DNA of 34,718 nucleotides from Erysipelotrichaceae bacterium (lineage in GTDB: Bacteria > Bacillota_I > Bacilli_A > Erysipelotrichales > Erysipelotrichaceae): NCBI GenBank assembly GCA_030528085.1, contig JAUMZN010000003.1, forward strand, positions 1-34,718, read 5' to 3'. Both the position numbers and the translations under genes were made by a program. Shown piece by piece: positions 120 to 9,985 of the stretch; position 1 is the first letter of the stretch; each line of letters begins with the position of its first letter. The notes beneath the pieces were generated by a model that was not told the origin of the DNA, did not search any database, and saw only the letters and a list, made by a program, of their open reading frames with translations.

Positions 120-668
120 TTGATTCCAAAATCAAATTTGGTTAAACAAATGCTGCGTTTATTGGTTGGTGTGATTGTTGGAATGATCGTTTTGTTTTTC
201 TTGTTTGGTTTATGCCTGTTATGCGGATTGATTGGAAGCAGTGTTGGTGGACTCCAAGCACCAATTTTGTTCTATACATTAGAAGGAACAACGAAGTTTG
301 TTTCAATTGCTTCACTGCTATTCAAATTTTTAGTCTTATCAATACTGGGCATAATGTTGATCGTGAATTTAGTTGCCGTATTTTCACGATGGATGAATAA
401 ACAGATGACGTGCTTTTTTGTGAGTTTGATTGTGGTTGGTGGATTGATGTGGTGTGTACAAGAGATTGCTCCTTTGCATTCTATTATGCAATTCCTGCCA
501 TTTACTTACTTGAATCCGATTCAAATCGTAACTCAAGAGCTGATGACCACGACCTCTAATTCGCAAGTGAATTTTATGTTCGGAACAATTATTCTTGTGA
601 TCAGTAATATTTTGTTGATGGGAATTTATTATTGGATTCAAAAGCGTTCTAAGGAAGTGGTTGTGTGA
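120..668 (+). CDS. ABC-2-type permease, C-terminal fragment (probably broken)
   Basis: Multi-pass membrane protein of 182 residues with about five or six hydrophobic segments, resembling the C-terminal half of an ABC-2-type exporter permease. It is clearly paralogous to the next gene: QFLPFTYL here matches QFLPTTYL there, and the flanking residues align with few gaps. Compared with that paralogue it lacks the N-terminal membrane anchor and the large extracytoplasmic region. The frame stays open upstream to position 57 and that extra stretch still aligns with the paralogue, but stops lie at 45-56. The TTG at 120 has no ribosome-binding site, so a true start is not visible. It overlaps the next gene by four bases (GTGA), which suggests translational coupling in the intact ancestor. 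Either a pseudogene remnant or a gene whose 5' part is frameshifted near the window edge. Confidence 0.5.
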   Translation: MIPKSNLVKQMLRLLVGVIVGMIVLFFLFGLCLLCGLIGSSVGGLQAPILFYTLEGTTKFVSIASLLFKFLVLSILGIMLIVNLVAVFSRWMNKQMTCFFVSLIVVGGLMWCVQEIAPLHSIMQFLPFTYLNPIQIVTQELMTTTSNSQVNFMFGTIILVISNILLMGIYYWIQKRSKEVVV

Positions 669-1837
669 GTGCTTGTTTAAATTTTGCATTGAAACGACTC
701 GCGAAACGCAAGTCAAACTACATTATCCTTTTGTTTTGCATGGGAATTGTCTCTGTTCTTTTCGTGATGAATTTGCGTTCACAAAATACGTTGAGTGAAA
801 CGTTAACTTCGCAAATTGCTATTTTCGAAGAAGATAATGAAAAAATCACGAAAATGATGGAAACTTTAAATCCAGTAAGTGAAGAATATCATCTGTATCA
901 AGATCATACGAACAAAAATGATATGAATATTATTGAGTATCAAAAAGCAATCGATTTATTTGAAGCGCAAGAGTGGACAAAATTCTATGACCAATATGGA
1001 AAACTTTTAGATGAACAAATTGAAATCATGAATAATACTTTGCAGACATCCGAGCAAGAAGGAGAATCTGACACGATATTGGCAGGCATGACTAAAAAAA
1101 AACAATATATTGATTACCTAGCCGAAAACCATTTAGAGTATGAAAACCAAGACTTTCCGATGTTTGGTCTTACATTTACGACATCGCTCGTGCAATTCTT
1201 TTTGCCGATTTTGATGATCGCAACGTGTATTTACGTGATCACTCAGCTCTATACTTTTGATGATGATAAAAGTATTTCCATCAGCAAATTGTTCCCGATC
1301 AACCAGTTTAAACTGTTGGTGTTAAAGCTGGCATTAGGAATCTTGATCTCATTTGGGATTGTTTTTGTGCTTGTCGCGTTTTCATTTTTGCTTTCTTCAC
1401 TCGTAACGATGAATACGGGACTAAATTATCCAGTGATCGCTGAACGCTCAAATGATATTTGGTAGGTCATTCCAGCTCATGCTTTATTTATGCAGTGGGG
1501 AGCACTGTTGATTTTATTCTTGATTCATATGAACGTCTTTACGTATCTTATTTCTCGGTTTGTTCGTGAAGAAGTCTCGTTATTACTAACTTTATTGTGC
1601 TTGATCATTGGACTAGCATGTTTGCCAAATTTTATTGGATTACTCCAACCAATCGCGCAGTTTTTACCGACAACTTATCTCCATTTTATTGATATTGTAA
1701 ATGGTGCGTTGGCAAATAAGTGGAACAATATGAGTTTGTCTTTTAATACTGGAACAATCGTATTAACGATCTGGAGTGTACTTGAATTTGGATTCTTATC
1801 GTTTTTACAAAAGAAAGATTCCAGTGTGAATCAATAA
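665..1837 (+). pseudogene. ABC-2-type permease interrupted by an in-frame TAG
   Basis: The reading frame starts at a GTG overlapping the previous stop, with AAGGAAG upstream as ribosome-binding site. It encodes an N-terminal membrane anchor, a charged extracytoplasmic region (about residues 35-160), then membrane segments. A TAG at 1463-1465 ends it after 266 residues. The same frame continues without any shift to 1837 and encodes further membrane segments that align with the end of the upstream paralogue. The stop falls opposite a Lys of the paralogue in a stretch that aligns without gaps. Without the stop the product would be 390 residues, a plausible permease. No ribosome-binding site precedes the internal ATG at 1490, so the second half is unlikely to be a separate gene. 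Nonsense-mutated pseudogene is the best reading; stop readthrough or a sequencing error are alternatives. Confidence 0.7.
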
Positions 1838-2043: not shown

Positions 2044-2080
2044 AAAAGAAAAGAATGTTCCGTAACTAAAGAACATTCTT
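2044..2080 (-). terminator. Terminator of the metallophosphatase operon
   Basis: A perfect 10-base inverted repeat, AAGAATGTTC at 2051-2060 and GAACATTCTT at 2071-2080. Read on the minus strand it is followed by TTCTTTT. It sits 28 bases beyond the phosphatase stop codon and probably ends this three-gene operon. Confidence 0.75.
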
Positions 2081-2107
2081 TCAAAACATTTGTATTTTGA
2101 TTTTAGA

Positions 2108-3223
2108 CTATGAGAAATCAAACTCATCTTCTTCAAGGATTGGATCGTAAAGAAGATTGGAAAGATCTGTCCAGCCCATTACACCATGGTGTTTGACTTG
2201 TGCCCGATTGTTCCAAATATTGACTAAATGGACAGTAGTGCCTGCTTGTAAAGGCAATTCGTAGTTTGTATAGTTGGACGCAAATCCGTTGACGATAAAA
2301 TCGTTATCGATCCAAACATGACGGTGCAAGTGTTCTGAGTAAACGTAAGATTCTTTTTCCCCTCGTTCAACAATTTCAACTTTGCTGTTGGTGTGGTTGA
2401 TGAAAAAGCTACTTTCGTTTTTTGGCTGCGTTGTATGCAAGACACGCACTTTTGGTAAATCATCGGTATTGACTGTGCGCATAAAATTTCTTCTTAGAAT
2501 CAGGGCATTAAGTTGACCTGATTTTTTGAGTACATTTCCGCCATCGATGGAATAGATATTTTTTTGACGATCGTAGCGCGGATTAAACTCAGGGAAAAAT
2601 GAGCAATACTCACTGACTGGGGTATGTCCGACAACGACCATCCGATTAAATCGATGGTTTTCTTTTTCAAATTGGAAACGGGTCATGATGTCTTTAAAGT
2701 CATCCGCAAACGTTTCTTCATTGGAAATGCCTGAATGGGCAAAAATCACCGATGGAGTCGTAATGACATGAGGCAAGTCGTTTAAAAACGAGAGCTCTGG
2801 TAAATAGCGTTTTCTTAGCTGCATGCAAAGCTGATCCATATCCGTGTCTTCACTAAGTGGTTCAAGTCCTGATTCTGCGATCATTTCATGAATCAATGAA
2901 GCTTTTCGCTGCAACAAGACGCTTTTTAAAAAGTCTAAGCGATAGGAATACAACACGTTTTTCGCAACGAAATCGTTGTTGCCCATTAATGCATAAAATT
3001 CTTTGTCTTCACGCGCCTGCTTCATAATAAAGCGCAAAGTATCTAGGTTTTGGGGGCCTTTTTCAATTAAATCGCCAACGAGAATCAGGCGATCTTCATT
3101 TGGATCGTAATCTACTTTTGCGAGTAATTTACGATAAGTATCAAGGGCACCATGAATATCGGAAATTGCGATTGTGCGCCCTTTAAAATAATCTAAGTTG
3201 AGTACAACAGGTTTTCGGTTCAT
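2108..3223 (-). CDS. Calcineurin-like metallophosphatase with a C-terminal SH3-like segment
   Basis: Predicted 371-residue cytoplasmic phosphoesterase. Visible motifs are DIHG (D22, H24), GDLIEKG (D51), GNND (81-84), FAHSG (H163) and GHTP (H200), the order of the PPP/ApaH-like metallophosphatase family. In that family the third motif is usually GNHE or GNHD, so the proton-donating His is replaced by Asn here. After the catalytic domain (about 1-250) comes a roughly 110-residue extension whose end (about 318-358, with GWTDL) resembles a bacterial SH3-like fold. The start chosen is the ATG that overlaps the esterase stop as ATGA and has GAGG upstream; an ATG 42 bases earlier would overlap the esterase by 46 bases. 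It is the last gene of the ATP-grasp/esterase/phosphatase operon. The substrate is unknown. Confidence 0.85.
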   Translation of the reverse strand: MNRKPVVLNLDYFKGRTIAISDIHGALDTYRKLLAKVDYDPNEDRLILVGDLIEKGPQNLDTLRFIMKQAREDKEFYALMGNNDFVAKNVLYSYRLDFLKSVLLQRKASLIHEMIAESGLEPLSEDTDMDQLCMQLRKRYLPELSFLNDLPHVITTPSVIFAHSGISNEETFADDFKDIMTRFQFEKENHRFNRMVVVGHTPVSEYCSFFPEFNPRYDRQKNIYSIDGGNVLKKSGQLNALILRRNFMRTVNTDDLPKVRVLHTTQPKNESSFFINHTNSKVEIVERGEKESYVYSEHLHRHVWIDNDFIVNGFASNYTNYELPLQAGTTVHLVNIWNNRAQVKHHGVMGWTDLSNLLYDPILEEDEFDFS

Positions 3224-3978
3224 TTGATTAAATACCTCAAAAATTGGGGCGTAATTTCTTCCCAAGAGGCTTCACAGTGTTCGCCATAAGGTCGAACATC
3301 AAATTGAATGTGAACGCCTTTTTTGATTAATATATTTGCTAAATCAGTTAACACTTTCGTTTCTGAAATAAACGCGTGGCCAGTAGTTCCTTCTAGTGCG
3401 CCCCAGGAAACATATAAGCCGCTTGGCATTTTGAGACGGCTTTTGCCGGCTGCATATAATAGGGAAGTGTAACTTGGCAATACATAGGGAGACAAGGCAA
3501 CAGCTCTAGAAAAATATTGCGAATGCATGCATAACGCATAAATCGCCATTAACCCGCCGCAACTCGATCCAGCGATCCAAGTATTCATACGATTAGGAAT
3601 CGTTGGAAAGTGCAGATCGATATAAGGTTTTAGTGTATCGACGATAAAGTCCATCGTCTGTTTGCCTTTTGCCTCGACTGTGATTCCAAATTCGGGATCA
3701 TAGAAAGGGTAAGGTGCATATTCACTGAGCCGTTCATTGCCATTGTGATTGCATTCAAGACCGACAACGATAATCTTTCTTTCAAGTTCATAAAGCGGAT
3801 TTAACATGCGCCAAGAACGACCAAACGTTGCGTCCTCATCAAAGAAGAGGTTATGTCCATCAAACATGTAAAGAACAGGATAAGTTTCTTGTGATGAGAT
3901 GTAATCATCAGGCAAATACATGTGGATTTTTATGTTTCGTTCGAGTTGAGTGGAAAATAAATCGAATTTTACAATCAT
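3220..3978 (-). CDS. Esterase-family alpha/beta hydrolase
   Basis: A 252-residue protein without a signal peptide, of the putative-esterase (esterase D/Fes-like) alpha/beta-hydrolase family. The nucleophile elbow is G-S-S-C-G-G at 137-142 with S139 as likely nucleophile. H234 in GEHCEASW is the likely catalytic His, and the conserved YMFDGHNLF block lies at 37-45. Its start overlaps the ATP-grasp stop by four bases (ATGA) and its own stop overlaps the phosphatase start the same way, so the three proteins are probably made together. Family members hydrolyse ester or peptide-like bonds of small molecules. The substrate here cannot be read from the sequence, but an ATP-grasp ligase next door suggests the two act on related amide or ester products. 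Confidence 0.85.
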   Translation of the reverse strand: MIVKFDLFSTQLERNIKIHMYLPDDYISSQETYPVLYMFDGHNLFFDEDATFGRSWRMLNPLYELERKIIVVGLECNHNGNERLSEYAPYPFYDPEFGITVEAKGKQTMDFIVDTLKPYIDLHFPTIPNRMNTWIAGSSCGGLMAIYALCMHSQYFSRAVALSPYVLPSYTSLLYAAGKSRLKMPSGLYVSWGALEGTTGHAFISETKVLTDLANILIKKGVHIQFDVRPYGEHCEASWEEITPQFLRYLIK

Positions 3979-5189
3979 TCTGATTTTGCATCTGATTTGC
4001 GAGCAAAGGAGTCTTTAAAGAAGCCATCACGACGTTCACCATCTGTAAAACGCGCTTTGATTGTGATGTTGCCCATCGCACTCGCAAATTCTGGTGGTAA
4101 AACTTCGACACCAAGCAGTTCACTGCTATATTTTTCCAACAACATCTCTAATGAATTCACGTAATCCACACCCGTGCGTCTACCAACAAAGCCAGCTGAA
4201 TAGTTAGCTTTTTCATGCATTTTGCATTCTTGTTTTAATAATACTTCGGCCCATAAACGATAAATATCTTCATTGTAAGTATAGTTGATCAAATCAGGAC
4301 AGAATCCTCCAGGTGGTCTGAAGTTCATTTCTAAAGCGATGAGATCACCTTTTTTACCGATACCTTCTTGATCGTGTTTTAATTCAAAATATTCTCCATG
4401 GAAGAAGCGATTTTTAATGCCAAAGGAGTTAATCACATTTTGAGCTATATTTTTGCGCTCTTGGCTAATCGCGAAGTTGTAGTAACAGCCAATGGAATCG
4501 TGATTTTGAACGGAATCCATACAGTTGGATACATAATCCATAGCGCAAAGGAAGCGGATTTGACCATTAGCATCGGCGATTCCATCTAATGTCGTGACAT
4601 CACCATCGACAAAGACTTCAAGAATCATCTGCATATTCAATGACTCTGCTTCATGCCAATATTGTTCTAATTGCTGCTCGTTTTTGATATGCCAAGTATA
4701 GCTTGCGCCAACTCCGATATCTGGTTTTAAAACGAGATTCCAACCATATTGGTAGGCGAATGCTTTAGCTTGATCTAAAGAAGAAACTAAACAATAAGGC
4801 GCAACCGCCAGTCCTGCTTTTTCATAATAAGATTTCATTGCGGATTTAGATTGGAATTTACGGATTTGTTCTAAGCTAAATCCAGAAGTGACATGAAAGT
4901 CATCGCGCAGTTTAGCGTCTAAATCTAACCAAGCTTCGTTGTTGGATTCGATCCAGTCCGGCTTTCCATATTTGAACGCAAAATATGCAACAGCACGATA
5001 GACTTCATCATAGTTATGGAAAGAGGAAACTTTATAACACTCATCGATGTTGTTGATGAGCTGGGGATGCAAAGTGTTATAGTCCGTGTCGATAATGGCG
5101 AGCACGCGAGCACCCATTTCTTTTAATCCCCGACAAAACATCCAATAATTTTGCGGATAGTTCGGGGAAATAAAGATGAAATTTTCCAT
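3975..5189 (-). CDS. ATP-grasp ligase of unknown substrate
   Basis: A 404-residue soluble protein with an ATP-grasp architecture: an N-terminal preATP-grasp region (about 1-110), a nucleotide-binding lysine in LVLKPDIGVGAS (K155), acidic residues in ILEVFVDGD (E191), HGEYFEL (about 264-270), and the metal-binding block ALEMNFRPPGG with E287 and N289. ATP-grasp enzymes couple a carboxylate to an amine or thiol through an acyl-phosphate. The overall pattern resembles carboxylate-amine ligase-like members, not a named biosynthetic enzyme. AGAAAGGA lies upstream of the ATG. It is the first gene of an operon with ATGA overlaps to the esterase and phosphatase, and it follows a leader with three perfect hairpins. 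The function is not known. Confidence 0.8.
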   Translation of the reverse strand: MENFIFISPNYPQNYWMFCRGLKEMGARVLAIIDTDYNTLHPQLINNIDECYKVSSFHNYDEVYRAVAYFAFKYGKPDWIESNNEAWLDLDAKLRDDFHVTSGFSLEQIRKFQSKSAMKSYYEKAGLAVAPYCLVSSLDQAKAFAYQYGWNLVLKPDIGVGASYTWHIKNEQQLEQYWHEAESLNMQMILEVFVDGDVTTLDGIADANGQIRFLCAMDYVSNCMDSVQNHDSIGCYYNFAISQERKNIAQNVINSFGIKNRFFHGEYFELKHDQEGIGKKGDLIALEMNFRPPGGFCPDLINYTYNEDIYRLWAEVLLKQECKMHEKANYSAGFVGRRTGVDYVNSLEMLLEKYSSELLGVEVLPPEFASAMGNITIKARFTDGERRDGFFKDSFARKSDAKSE

Positions 5190-5210
5190 GCATTTTCCTT
5201 TCTATTAGTG

Positions 5211-5306
5211 CATTGAACAAAAGAAATGTTCAATGGGGAATATATAAAAGAATGGATCAAACTCGCATTTGATCCATACAGCCAATTATGTTTTGAAATA
5301 ATTGGC
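5211..5306 (-). promoter_or_regulatory. Three consecutive perfect hairpins in the leader of the ATP-grasp operon
   Basis: Three perfect inverted repeats lie head to tail: CATTGAACA 5211-5219 with TGTTCAATG 5227-5235; ATGGATCAAA 5252-5261 with TTTGATCCAT 5268-5277; GCCAATTAT 5281-5289 with ATAATTGGC 5298-5306. On the minus strand the middle one is followed by TTCTTTTATATA and could terminate transcription from the Nudix gene. The 5211-5235 hairpin lies just ahead of the ribosome-binding site of the ATP-grasp gene. GGATCAAA recurs near 5357 and a GGATCC near 5332. I found no convincing -35/-10 pair in 5190-5421. Terminator, attenuator or operator roles are all possible. Confidence 0.5.
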
Positions 5307-5421
5307 AAAGTTAAAAACATAAACGAGTTTTGGATCCTAGTCGGGGGATGACTTTTGGATCAAACACAATTTTAAGCGAAGAAAAACAAGATTGAAATAA
5401 AGGTGAAACAAGAATGAAAAT

Positions 5422-5952
5422 TTAAGATTTTTTTGTTTCAAATTGTTCTAATTTTGCTTGATAGATCGCTAAAATCGTTTTACCATCGCGAATTTCGCCG
5501 GTTTGGATCATTTGATATGCAGTATCCAAATCGATCCATTCTTGCGTGATATCTTCAGTTTCATCCATCGCTAAACGATGTTTAGCAACGCGTGGGTTGA
5601 TGGCAGAATAAACGTAAATGACTTCACTATCGTAGCCTGGAGTTGGCCAAAAGGCAGTGATTAAAGAAAGATCATCAGCTTCCATGCCTGTTTCTTCATT
5701 GAGTTCACGCATCGCACAAATTTTTGGATCTTCGTTGGGATCAATTGTTCCTGCTGGAATTTCAAGTGTGGAGACGTTGCCAATTCCTGCTCGAGTTTGA
5801 CGAACGAGCAAAATTTTATGATCGACGATGACACGGATTGCTGCACCACCGGGATGAACGACTAAATCGCGCATCATCATTTTGCCGTTGACATCCATTT
5901 CTTTTTGGTAAACGGAAAAGATATGTCCGTTAAAAATTTCTTTTTGATTCAT
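5422..5952 (-). CDS. nudF: Nudix hydrolase, ADP-ribose pyrophosphatase type
   Basis: A 176-residue enzyme of the ADP-ribose pyrophosphatase branch of Nudix hydrolases, which split ADP-ribose to AMP and ribose 5-phosphate. The full Nudix box is present: G68, E74, then R82-E83-L-N-E86-E87-T-G89. It is preceded by IPAG and followed by the WPTPGYDSE segment typical of this branch. The start has AGAGGTGA eight or so bases upstream. It follows the amidase-like gene at a distance of 36 bases on the same strand and is probably cotranscribed with it. Length and motifs are normal. The exact substrate is inferred from the family. Confidence 0.88.
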   Translation of the reverse strand: MNQKEIFNGHIFSVYQKEMDVNGKMMMRDLVVHPGGAAIRVIVDHKILLVRQTRAGIGNVSTLEIPAGTIDPNEDPKICAMRELNEETGMEADDLSLITAFWPTPGYDSEVIYVYSAINPRVAKHRLAMDETEDITQEWIDLDTAYQMIQTGEIRDGKTILAIYQAKLEQFETKKS

Positions 5953-5988: not shown

Positions 5989-6714
5989 TTAATTGACACA
6001 AGTTAAAAATGCTTGGGTAATCGCATTGGCAATTCTAGCTTGGAATTTTGTATTGGAGATTTTGTCGTAATCGTTAGGATTGGTGATATAGCCGATCTGC
6101 AGCAATAAAGCAGGGGTCTCGGTATCTTTTAAAATCGCAAAAGAATCATAATGATCCGTATCGATTCCTTCATCACGGGTATAACTAGTCGCGCGGATTT
6201 GGTTAGCCATTTCTTTAGCGAGGTCTTCGAGTTCTAAATTGTTGGGTTGAGTAAAGATCGAAAATCCCCGATGAAGCGAAGTATCTTGATTCATTGAAAG
6301 AGATAAAATGTAATCTGCGTTCAATTCTTTGGCTTTCGTTAAACGGATATTTTCGCATTCATCTTGTGTTGAACATGCGGGAACATCGTCATACCAGCGC
6401 GAATATTCAACGTTATAGCCCGCTTTTTCAAGTGAGGTGCCAATCGATAAAGCAAGCTGCATCAATAAGTCTTTTTCAGACAGTTGATTTTCAGCACTAT
6501 AACCAACATCACTGCCGCCGCGAGTTGGATCGATATAAATGGTCGCTTTTGATGTTGCTTGTTTCGTTTCGACATCGTTATTGGTTTTGAGTGCAGAACC
6601 ATCTACATAGACAGGGATTTTATCTTCACGAGCAGCTTGGTTGCCGACAAAGTTTGGTTCGACAACGAGAAGGATAAATAAAGCGACAAATAAAAAAGCG
6701 ACTGCACGTTTCAT
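5989..6714 (-). CDS. Amidase_3-fold protein lacking catalytic residues
   Basis: A 241-residue protein with an N-terminal hydrophobic signal/anchor (about 4-20) and an N-acetylmuramoyl-L-alanine amidase (Amidase_3, CwlD/LytC-like) domain from about 57. Active family members hold zinc with His-Glu-His and use a Glu near the end. Here DPGHGG reads DPTRGG (R65), the usual S-x-H-x-N reads SLSMN (S140), and the final Glu of the E-x-G-F/Y-x-x-N block is Q206 in LQIGYITN; only E80 remains. The fold signatures are otherwise intact, so this looks like a maintained pseudoenzyme that may bind peptidoglycan or regulate another hydrolase, not a decaying gene. The ribosome-binding site is AGGAGGAA. A TTGCAC-18-TACAAT promoter lies upstream. 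Confidence 0.75.
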   Translation of the reverse strand: MKRAVAFLFVALFILLVVEPNFVGNQAAREDKIPVYVDGSALKTNNDVETKQATSKATIYIDPTRGGSDVGYSAENQLSEKDLLMQLALSIGTSLEKAGYNVEYSRWYDDVPACSTQDECENIRLTKAKELNADYILSLSMNQDTSLHRGFSIFTQPNNLELEDLAKEMANQIRATSYTRDEGIDTDHYDSFAILKDTETPALLLQIGYITNPNDYDKISNTKFQARIANAITQAFLTCVN

Positions 6715-7868: not shown

Positions 7869-8515
7869 AGAGAATTAAACCCATTGTGGAAGGTCTTGTA
7901 TTTACAAGTGGGGAAGATGGTTTATCTTTAATCCAGATTCAATCCGTTTTAGAGTGCACACGCGATGAAATTAGCCGTGTTTTAGAATTAATCAGACAAG
8001 AATATCAAGATGACAATAAGGGAATTGAACTTGTCAAATACGGGGGGCGTTGGAAATTTGTGACCAAGGAGTCTGTGTACCCATATGCTTCAAGACTGTA
8101 TGCCAAAGCGCAAAATAACACGCTTTCAGCAGCAGCGATGGAAGTATTATCTTTAGTAGCTTATCGCCAGCCAATTACGCGTGTGGAAATTGATGATATT
8201 CGTGGTGTATCGAGTGAAATGATGCTCAAAAAGCTGCAGGCAAGAGACTTAATTGAAACTTGTGGGCATAAAGAAACGATTGGCCGCCCGCTTTTATATC
8301 AAGTCAGCGCCCGCTTTTATGATACATTTGGCTTGGAAAGCTTAGAAGATTTACCACAGACTGAACAAAAACAAGGACCAGATAATTTGTTCTATCAACC
8401 AGATTTTAATGAAGCGATTCAAGAAGATCTTGATCGACAAAATACGCAAGACAATCAAAATCAAGAAAGTCAAACTACTTCTTTAGACAATCAAAATGAC
8501 AACGAAAATACTTAG
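7847..8515 (+). CDS. scpB: Segregation and condensation protein B
   Basis: A 222-residue dimeric winged-helix partner of ScpA in the SMC condensin. The conserved core LSAAAMEVLSLVAYRQPITR and the following VEIDDIRGVSS segment lie near residues 87-124, and GRPLLYQVS follows, as in the family. The last 40 or so residues are an Asn/Gln/Asp-rich low-complexity tail that is probably disordered. AGGAGG lies upstream of the ATG, inside the end of scpA, so the two are translationally linked. Confidence 0.95.
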   Translation: MDSENLIERIKPIVEGLVFTSGEDGLSLIQIQSVLECTRDEISRVLELIRQEYQDDNKGIELVKYGGRWKFVTKESVYPYASRLYAKAQNNTLSAAAMEVLSLVAYRQPITRVEIDDIRGVSSEMMLKKLQARDLIETCGHKETIGRPLLYQVSARFYDTFGLESLEDLPQTEQKQGPDNLFYQPDFNEAIQEDLDRQNTQDNQNQESQTTSLDNQNDNENT

Positions 8516-8531
8516 AAAGGAATGAGTGATC

Positions 8532-9260
8532 ATGCAAGAACGTCTTCAAAAAGTTATCGCCCAATCGGGTGTATGTTCACGCCGCAAAGCCGAGGAATTA
8601 ATTTTGGCTGGCAAAGTCAAAGTGAATGGCAAAGTTGTTTCGATTTTAGGAACTAAAGTTTATCCAAGCGATCGCATTGTGGTCGATGGTCAAGTATTAG
8701 CCAAAGAAGAAAAAGTGTACTACGTCCTCAATAAACCAAAAGGCTGCGTGACAACCGCAAAAGATGATAAAGATCGCAAAACCGTTATGGATTACGTTCC
8801 TAGCGGCGCTCGCGTTTTCCCAGTCGGCCGATTGGACTACGATACATCGGGCGTTTTGATCATGACCAACGATGGTGACTTCGCTAATAAAATGACCCAT
8901 CCTCGTTACCATTTGCCAAAAACGTATGAGATCAACTTACAAGGGATGTTAAGTGATGAGGATGTTAAAAAATTGCGCCGTGGCTTCAGCCATGATGGCG
9001 AAAAATTTGCGCCGGCAAAAGTCTATATTAAAAATACTGACTACGCTCGCGATCGCATGTTATTAGATTTGACGATTTATGAAGGACATAACCACCAAGT
9101 CAAAAATATGATGGCTGCATTAGGTCATCAAGTACGCCGCTTGCATCGTTCCCGTTTTGGTTTTGTGACTGTTGAGGATTTAAGACCGGGTGAATGCCGC
9201 CGCTTAAAACCTTATGATGTGCGCAAACTCATTCACATGAGTGAGGAGAAAGCTTCGTGA
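8532..9260 (+). CDS. rluB: rRNA pseudouridine synthase (RluB/RsuA family)
   Basis: A 242-residue enzyme that isomerises a uridine in rRNA to pseudouridine. An N-terminal S4 RNA-binding domain (about 2-60, RLQKVIAQSGVCSRRKAEE) is followed by the catalytic domain with GRLDYDTSGVL, D102 being the catalytic Asp, and the YEGHNHQVKNM motif. Placement after scpB is typical of rluB in Bacillota. The ATG chosen is ten bases after AGAAAGGA; a GTG six bases earlier is too close to that site. The stop overlaps the GTG of rsmE. Confidence 0.9.
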   Translation: MQERLQKVIAQSGVCSRRKAEELILAGKVKVNGKVVSILGTKVYPSDRIVVDGQVLAKEEKVYYVLNKPKGCVTTAKDDKDRKTVMDYVPSGARVFPVGRLDYDTSGVLIMTNDGDFANKMTHPRYHLPKTYEINLQGMLSDEDVKKLRRGFSHDGEKFAPAKVYIKNTDYARDRMLLDLTIYEGHNHQVKNMMAALGHQVRRLHRSRFGFVTVEDLRPGECRRLKPYDVRKLIHMSEEKAS

Positions 9261-9985
9261 AACAAGTCTTCTATGATCAGCCATTAAATGTGGGCGATAT
9301 CGTTGAACTCGACGAAAAAACCGCTCATCATCTTTTTGATGTCACGCGCACGACACCAAAAGAAACAATTCGCATTGTCGATGCTGACAAACAGTTGTTC
9401 TATGGTCATGTGCAAACAAAACCATGCATTGAAATTGTCGAAAAGCTCGACAATCAATGTGCAAAATTAGATATCACATTATGTGCCGCTTTAATTAAAG
9501 CGGATAAGTGGGAATGGATGCTGCAAAAAGCGACCGAACTCGGTGTTAGCCGCATCGTTCCATTTACAAGCAAAAACACGATGATTCAAATCGAACCTAA
9601 AAAAGCAAGCCGCAAATTAGAGCGCTGGCAAACGATTTGTCAAGCGGCATGTCAACAATCTAATCGCACAGATTTAGTGCAAATTGAGCCGATTTGTAGC
9701 GTTAATGACTTAGATCGCTATCAAAGTGATCTCAATATTTGCGCTTGGGAAAAAGAGGGTATTGAAAACCATCTTTGTTGCACGCTCAATCAAATCGATC
9801 AATCCGTCACCTTTGTGATTGGTCCTGAAGGCGGAATTACCGAACAAGAAGCAAAAGCTCTTGAAGAAAAAGGCTTTGTCCTTTGTTCTTTAGGAGAAAA
9901 TATTTTACGAGCAGAAACAGCCGCTTGTTATTTATGCGCGACTGCTCAATATGCTTATTCCACAAATCTTGCTAAAAAGCGCTAA
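9257..9985 (+). CDS. rsmE: 16S rRNA (uracil1498-N3)-methyltransferase
   Basis: A 242-residue SPOUT-class methyltransferase that methylates U1498 of 16S rRNA using S-adenosylmethionine. The N-terminal PUA-like part is followed by KADKWEWMLQKATELGV and the SAM-binding knot with VIGPEGGITEQE and LGENILRAETA. The start is a GTG overlapping the rluB stop by four bases, with GAGGAGAA upstream. The length is normal. In many Bacillota rsmE precedes mtaB, as here, but a terminator-like hairpin lies between them. Confidence 0.93.
   Translation: MKQVFYDQPLNVGDIVELDEKTAHHLFDVTRTTPKETIRIVDADKQLFYGHVQTKPCIEIVEKLDNQCAKLDITLCAALIKADKWEWMLQKATELGVSRIVPFTSKNTMIQIEPKKASRKLERWQTICQAACQQSNRTDLVQIEPICSVNDLDRYQSDLNICAWEKEGIENHLCCTLNQIDQSVTFVIGPEGGITEQEAKALEEKGFVLCSLGENILRAETAACYLCATAQYAYSTNLAKKR

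Follow-up and report, generated by a model that had tools for sequence, protein, structure and literature searches.

A conserved pair of ATP-grasp ligase and PF00756 hydrolase genes, extended by a metallophosphatase in one lineage, in Erysipelotrichaceae

The window, a stretch of 34,718 nucleotides of a contig (JAUMZN010000003.1) from an Erysipelotrichaceae bacterium, carries three minus-strand genes encoding an ATP-grasp ligase, a PF00756 serine hydrolase (EST) and a metallophosphatase, which an initial annotation had described as joined by two ATGA overlaps; both the open reading frames and the two tetramers were confirmed (Table 1). The Pfam scores exceeded the cut-offs for ATP-grasp (29.6 bits, cut-off 27), Esterase (81.1 bits, cut-off 22) and Metallophos (49.7 bits, cut-off 21.5). 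The phosphatase reading frame can be extended to a TTG at 3265, but relatives keep the ATG at 3223 as their start. Directly past its stop lies an 11-bp perfect inverted repeat (2050-2060/2071-2081), and the surrounding 78 nt fold with a z of -3.95, bearing out the terminator that had been proposed there. A gene for a CwlD-like N-acetylmuramoyl-L-alanine amidase (Amidase_3; 5989-6714, minus strand) lies upstream of the NUDIX gene, which it overlaps in two other loci (L048 and L050). At the opposite end, three small membrane-protein ORFs (120-1837, plus strand) are convergent with the operon; two of them were compared to Pfam and had no match. The source genome is 66% complete and in 125 contigs. 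The nearest named locus is that of Erysipelotrichaceae bacterium RD49, followed by that of an Ileibacterium MAG (76% and 64% identity of the ATP-grasp proteins), and in both the same three genes are adjacent, the Ileibacterium esterase copy being broken up or shortened.

Table 1. Genes, junctions and hairpin features of the operon region in the window
Feature	Positions	Strand	Remark
ATP-grasp ligase, L-amino-acid-ligase-like, 404 aa	3975-5189	-	PF02222
PF00756 serine hydrolase (esterase fold; EST), 252 aa	3220-3978	-	PF00756
Calcineurin/PPP-like metallophosphatase, 371 aa	2108-3223	-	PF00149
ATGA overlap, ATP-grasp stop / esterase start	3975-3978	-	plus strand reads TCAT
ATGA overlap, esterase stop / phosphatase start	3220-3223	-	plus strand reads TCAT
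NUDIX hydrolase	5422-5952	-	Nudix box aa 68-89, ADP-ribose pyrophosphatase-like
NUDIX to ATP-grasp gap, 232 nt, three hairpins	5190-5421	-	window-specific
Terminator-like hairpin after phosphatase gene	2050-2081	-	

ATP-grasp folds are also used in biotin carboxylase, PurK and CPSase-type reactions, so that the fold alone does not prove amide formation. A profile of 42 relatives of the ATP-grasp protein, searched against the PDB with hmmsearch, retrieved RizA (4wd3) first, with an E-value of 2.4e-20 compared to 1e-12 for the next match, and BacD and BL00235 with weaker E-values than RizA. The AlphaFold model of the protein (pLDDT 93.5) gave six top Foldseek matches in the PDB that were all L-amino-acid ligases, namely RizA, BL00235 (3vot) and BacD/YwfE (3vmm, 3wnz), the best with an E-value of 1.1e-25 and a TM-score of 0.69. 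These enzymes have the ATP-grasp architecture and catalytic motifs in common with the window protein, although the identity over the structural alignment is only ~12-19%. K155, H264, E266, E287, N289 and R291, which cover the ATP-grasp catalytic set (Lys, Glu/Glu/Asn metal ligands, Arg), are invariant in the 42 sequences, and E191 is also conserved; with the exception of N289, the invariant residues align to identical residues of RizA, and the ATP-binding Lys, H-x-E, E-x-x-x-R and GG motifs are preserved. By profile and predicted fold, the protein is thus nearest to the L-amino-acid dipeptide ligases, and ATP-dependent dipeptide synthesis is a possible activity.

Mutation of T81, K83, S84, S156 and A158 in RizA shifts its product spectrum (PMC9321006). 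The window protein has N84, A86, W87, V160 and A162 at these sites, A158/A162 being the sole agreement, and among the 42 sequences N84 and W87 are invariant and V160 and A162 are conserved in at least 90%. Since the specificity sites are replaced yet fixed, with N84 and W87 in place of the RizA residues, the comparison suggests that the relatives share one substrate, unlike that of RizA. The replacements speak against the substrate of RizA but leave membership in the wider L-amino-acid ligase kind untouched. With 19% identity to RizA and these sites replaced, a match to a ligase of known substrate, which the initial annotation had named as a refuting result, was not seen. In contrast to RizA, BL00235 and BacD, the ligase is often paired with a PF00756 hydrolase and does not lie within an antibiotic gene cluster.

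Each of the three proteins was searched in 196 genomes of the family, and about 100 neighbourhoods were inspected; because esterase matches were listed down to ~138 bits and contigs are short, the linkage counts are lower bounds. The ligase was found in 131 of the 196 genomes, a few weak matches included. Its gene and that of the esterase lie no more than 4 kb apart in at least 80 of the 108 family genomes that hold both, against an expectation of less than 1% per gene pair for random positions in a 2-Mb genome, so that the linkage is well above chance. Linkage to the ATP-grasp gene was seen for 23 of 24 close homologues of the phosphatase (at least 280 bits) and for none of 17 distant ones. 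The conserved unit is therefore the pair of ATP-grasp ligase and PF00756 hydrolase, to which one lineage has added the phosphatase. Independent occurrence of the three genes, which had been named in advance as speaking against a common pathway, was accordingly seen in part for the phosphatase and not for the ligase and esterase. Among the matches listed, EST was unlinked to the ATP-grasp gene at 69 of 150 places, and many reduced genomes (family f8 and others) retain the ATP-grasp gene with no adjoining hydrolase. In one genus a HAD-type hydrolase gene lies between ligase and esterase (L057, L115, L116). No transporter, regulator or substrate-making gene was consistently linked in the neighbourhoods inspected, and a search of open-access papers found no description of the pair, although one may exist elsewhere. 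An anti-phage defence system was considered and rejected, the PADLOC matches being weak and partial (Csn2 19.8 bits, PDC-S07 26.9 bits).

The putative catalytic triad of the esterase (S139 in GSSCGG, E196 and H234) is invariant in 26 relatives, and no signal peptide could be recognised by eye. A second PF00756 family, C7, forms a clade separate from EST. The window esterase has the fold, the GxSxG nucleophile elbow, the His and the acidic residue of the carbohydrate, feruloyl and siderophore esterases of PF00756 (CE1-like; IroE, Bes, FAE), but unlike these it is without a recognisable signal peptide and linked to an ATP-grasp gene. Both EST and C7 fall outside any specific NCBIfam equivalog; the window esterase scored 41.9 bits against the GTNG_0744-family esterase model (NF058612, cut-off 450). 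Relatives of EST on Vibrio, E. coli, Cytobacillus and Glaesserella plasmids lie amid maltodextrin or unrelated genes without an ATP-grasp gene, and EST alone is therefore only a generic esterase clue. The window's own genome holds, on other contigs, a C7-type hydrolase (G000:C97:189-926, L146) and a second EST-type hydrolase (G000:C115:277-990, L147), and the stretches examined around them contain no ATP-grasp homologue. An analogous coupling of a ligase domain to an esterase domain occurs in animal C7orf58, which differs in that a TTL-type ligase and an unrelated, SGNH-like (PC-)esterase are combined in a single secreted polypeptide (PMC2824669).

In PDB searches with the EST and C7 profiles, ferulic acid esterases matched best. 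This is consistent with salvage or detoxification, in which plant or host esters would be imported and cut in the cytosol by a feruloyl/CE1-like esterase, and the ligase would conjugate the freed acid to an amino acid, the phosphatase and NUDIX being unrelated housekeeping neighbours. The nearest named relatives are gut or chicken/rumen MAGs, and on the side of the amidase and NUDIX there is partial synteny with ScpA/ScpB, as this explanation would allow; however, neither an importer nor an ester-uptake gene is linked, and the NUDIX and phosphatase overlaps are retained across many genera, unlike those of random neighbours, and we regard salvage as unlikely. The PDB relatives of the esterase also include IroE-like, BES and triacetylfusarinine esterases, and FeoA and/or FeoB ferrous-iron transport genes adjoin the ATP-grasp gene in two unrelated lineages (L005, L007, L008 and L011 of the Clostridia, and L062). 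Both would fit siderophore-like chemistry, in which the ATP-grasp enzyme assembles, and IroE/Fes/Bes-like esterases hydrolyse, an iron-binding conjugate. Feo, however, takes up free ferrous iron and not siderophores, most loci have no Feo neighbour, and no siderophore exporter or binding protein was found, making this explanation highly improbable.

A maximum-likelihood tree of 94 ATP-grasp proteins separated two clades with support of 100/100 on both sides; as the tree is midpoint-rooted, it shows the split and not its direction. Clade I ligases adjoin EST, and clade II ligases adjoin C7 and at times EST too. Because some clade II operons hold both C7 and EST, ligase clade and hydrolase family do not correspond in a strict one-to-one manner. 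The gene order ligase–C7–ligase is recurrent in the sister family, and in two genomes (G035 and G079) ligase II, C7, EST and ligase I follow each other in a single run. A graspetide (RiPP) system would have a precursor-peptide gene beside the ATP-grasp gene; clade I operons mostly leave no intergenic room, and in the flanks ORFs of at least 60 aa were considered.

Outside the family, the ligase was found in 4 of 245 sampled Clostridia genomes, and those of G714 (both copies), G746 and G759 each adjoin C7 or EST. On Pararhizobium, Sinorhizobium and Peptoclostridium plasmids, the ligase and C7 are adjacent (31-34% and 41-45% identity). Since the occurrence is sporadic but the pairing is kept, the pair seems to have been transferred as a unit, also to bacteria unrelated to gut Erysipelotrichales. 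This distribution bears on the possibility that separate housekeeping enzymes are held together by synteny through an accident of shared regulation. The Erysipelotrichaceae loci do have common flanks (ScpA/B, amidase, PLP lyase), but the pair turns up again where the neighbourhood is unrelated, and also in other classes and a different phylum, and we therefore find such an accident very unlikely. On a Massilia plasmid, the ATP-grasp gene lies 1-10 nt from a methyltransferase gene, itself after an aminotransferase gene, an arrangement like that of a small biosynthetic cluster. Three short contigs from human faeces filed as 'Bacteriophage sp.' (MT836893.1, MT838107.1, MT838712.1) encode an ATP-grasp protein at 37-41% identity and are possibly bacterial DNA.

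The initial annotation had treated the three genes as a complete unit, leaving out the NUDIX gene, which is a more regular member of the operon than the phosphatase. In 25 of the 26 loci of the window's branch, the NUDIX and ATP-grasp genes are neighbours, and the two overlap or are separated by at most 24 nt in 16 of 25 relatives. Since NUDIX abuts the ATP-grasp gene in most relatives, the operon ancestrally ran NUDIX–ATP-grasp–esterase–phosphatase, with NUDIX first. Within the gap, three hairpins (5281-5306, 5252-5277 and 5211-5235) lie in a segment, 5211-5322, with a folding z of -4.6, and the one at 5277-5252 is terminator-like with a T-rich tail. The hairpin leader of the earlier description is thus present, but it is unconserved and separates NUDIX from the rest of the operon; a role of these hairpins as a conserved regulator was rejected, as they are absent even in genus mates. 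With NUDIX 232 nt off behind a terminator-like hairpin, the window holds a loosened version of the four-gene operon, and the leader is a local split. An Rfam scan of the window matched no family, and therefore the leader contains no known riboswitch.

In both profile and fold, the phosphatase comes closest to the ApaH-like and lambda phosphatases, and it has in common with these and PrpE the metal-ligand motifs D-x-H, GD, GN, H and H, its ligands D22, H24, D51, N82, H163 and H200 being invariant. It differs from them in the general-acid His of GNH(D/E), which is replaced by Asn or Cys (GNND in the window, mostly GNCD in relatives), in a Lys for the Arg of GDxVDRG (GDxxEKG), and in an additional C-terminal third that is an all-beta region in the predicted model, SH3-like by eye. 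Because this histidine is lost, the phosphatase activity may be weak or altered. The named NCBIfam equivalogs all scored far below their cut-offs for the operon's proteins, including ApaH (63.3 bits, cut-off 176) and PrpE (30.5 bits, cut-off 340) for the phosphatase. The phosphatase gene is absent from four otherwise identical operons (L052, L053, L055, L114). In one genus mate (L044, G137; 8356-9509) a stop or frameshift divides its reading frame into two parts.

The NUDIX and phosphatase genes were joined to the pair at the same node, and together with the ApaH-like affinity of the phosphatase and an ADP-ribosylglycohydrolase gene within the Peptoclostridium ligase-hydrolase neighbourhood, this would be consistent with a nucleotide-centred operon, in which ADP-ribose or dinucleoside polyphosphates would be the substrates of NUDIX and the ApaH/PPP-like phosphatase, and the ligase and esterase would modify a nucleotide-linked acyl or aminoacyl group. 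Most lineages, however, have the core pair without either accessory gene, and the phosphatase has lost the PPP general-acid His and also scores far under the PPP cut-offs, so that we judge a nucleotide-centred function quite unlikely. Instead, it is plausible that the phosphatase and NUDIX are accessories of one branch, added stepwise to an older pair.

The single pathway for all three enzymes that had been proposed initially stands in so far as the coupling of ligase and hydrolase is tight and recurrent and the enzymes nearest to the ligase are L-amino-acid ligases, which form peptide bonds, but the set of three is not fixed. The reading we prefer, to which we give about even chances, is that the ligase, driven by ATP, forms an amide or peptide bond in a small metabolite to which the pair is dedicated, and that the hydrolase acts on this compound too. 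The ligase would consume ATP to activate a carboxylate as an acyl phosphate and join the activated acid to an amine, giving a product like a dipeptide or an N-acyl-amino acid. The dedicated intracellular PF00756 serine hydrolase would act on this metabolite, either freeing an acid or alcohol ahead of ligation or cleaving the product for turnover. NUDIX and the divergent PPP-like metallophosphatase, added in the window's lineage, would most likely handle a phosphorylated or nucleotide-linked substrate or by-product.

More broadly, the data are compatible with a new small-molecule pathway, a reading we put forward tentatively. Its basis would be a ligase-hydrolase module that is widespread, has spread horizontally and exists in two flavours with a separate hydrolase for each. 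The module would make and process a dipeptide-like or amide metabolite in gut Erysipelotrichales and, more sporadically, in members of the Clostridia and in rhizobia. The presence of the ligase in about two thirds of the sampled family genomes points to a common, unnamed metabolite, and the cognate pairing of ligase and hydrolase offers a simple two-protein system open to testing. Given the fixed specificity residues, the identification of a single substrate would probably allow much of the family to be annotated.
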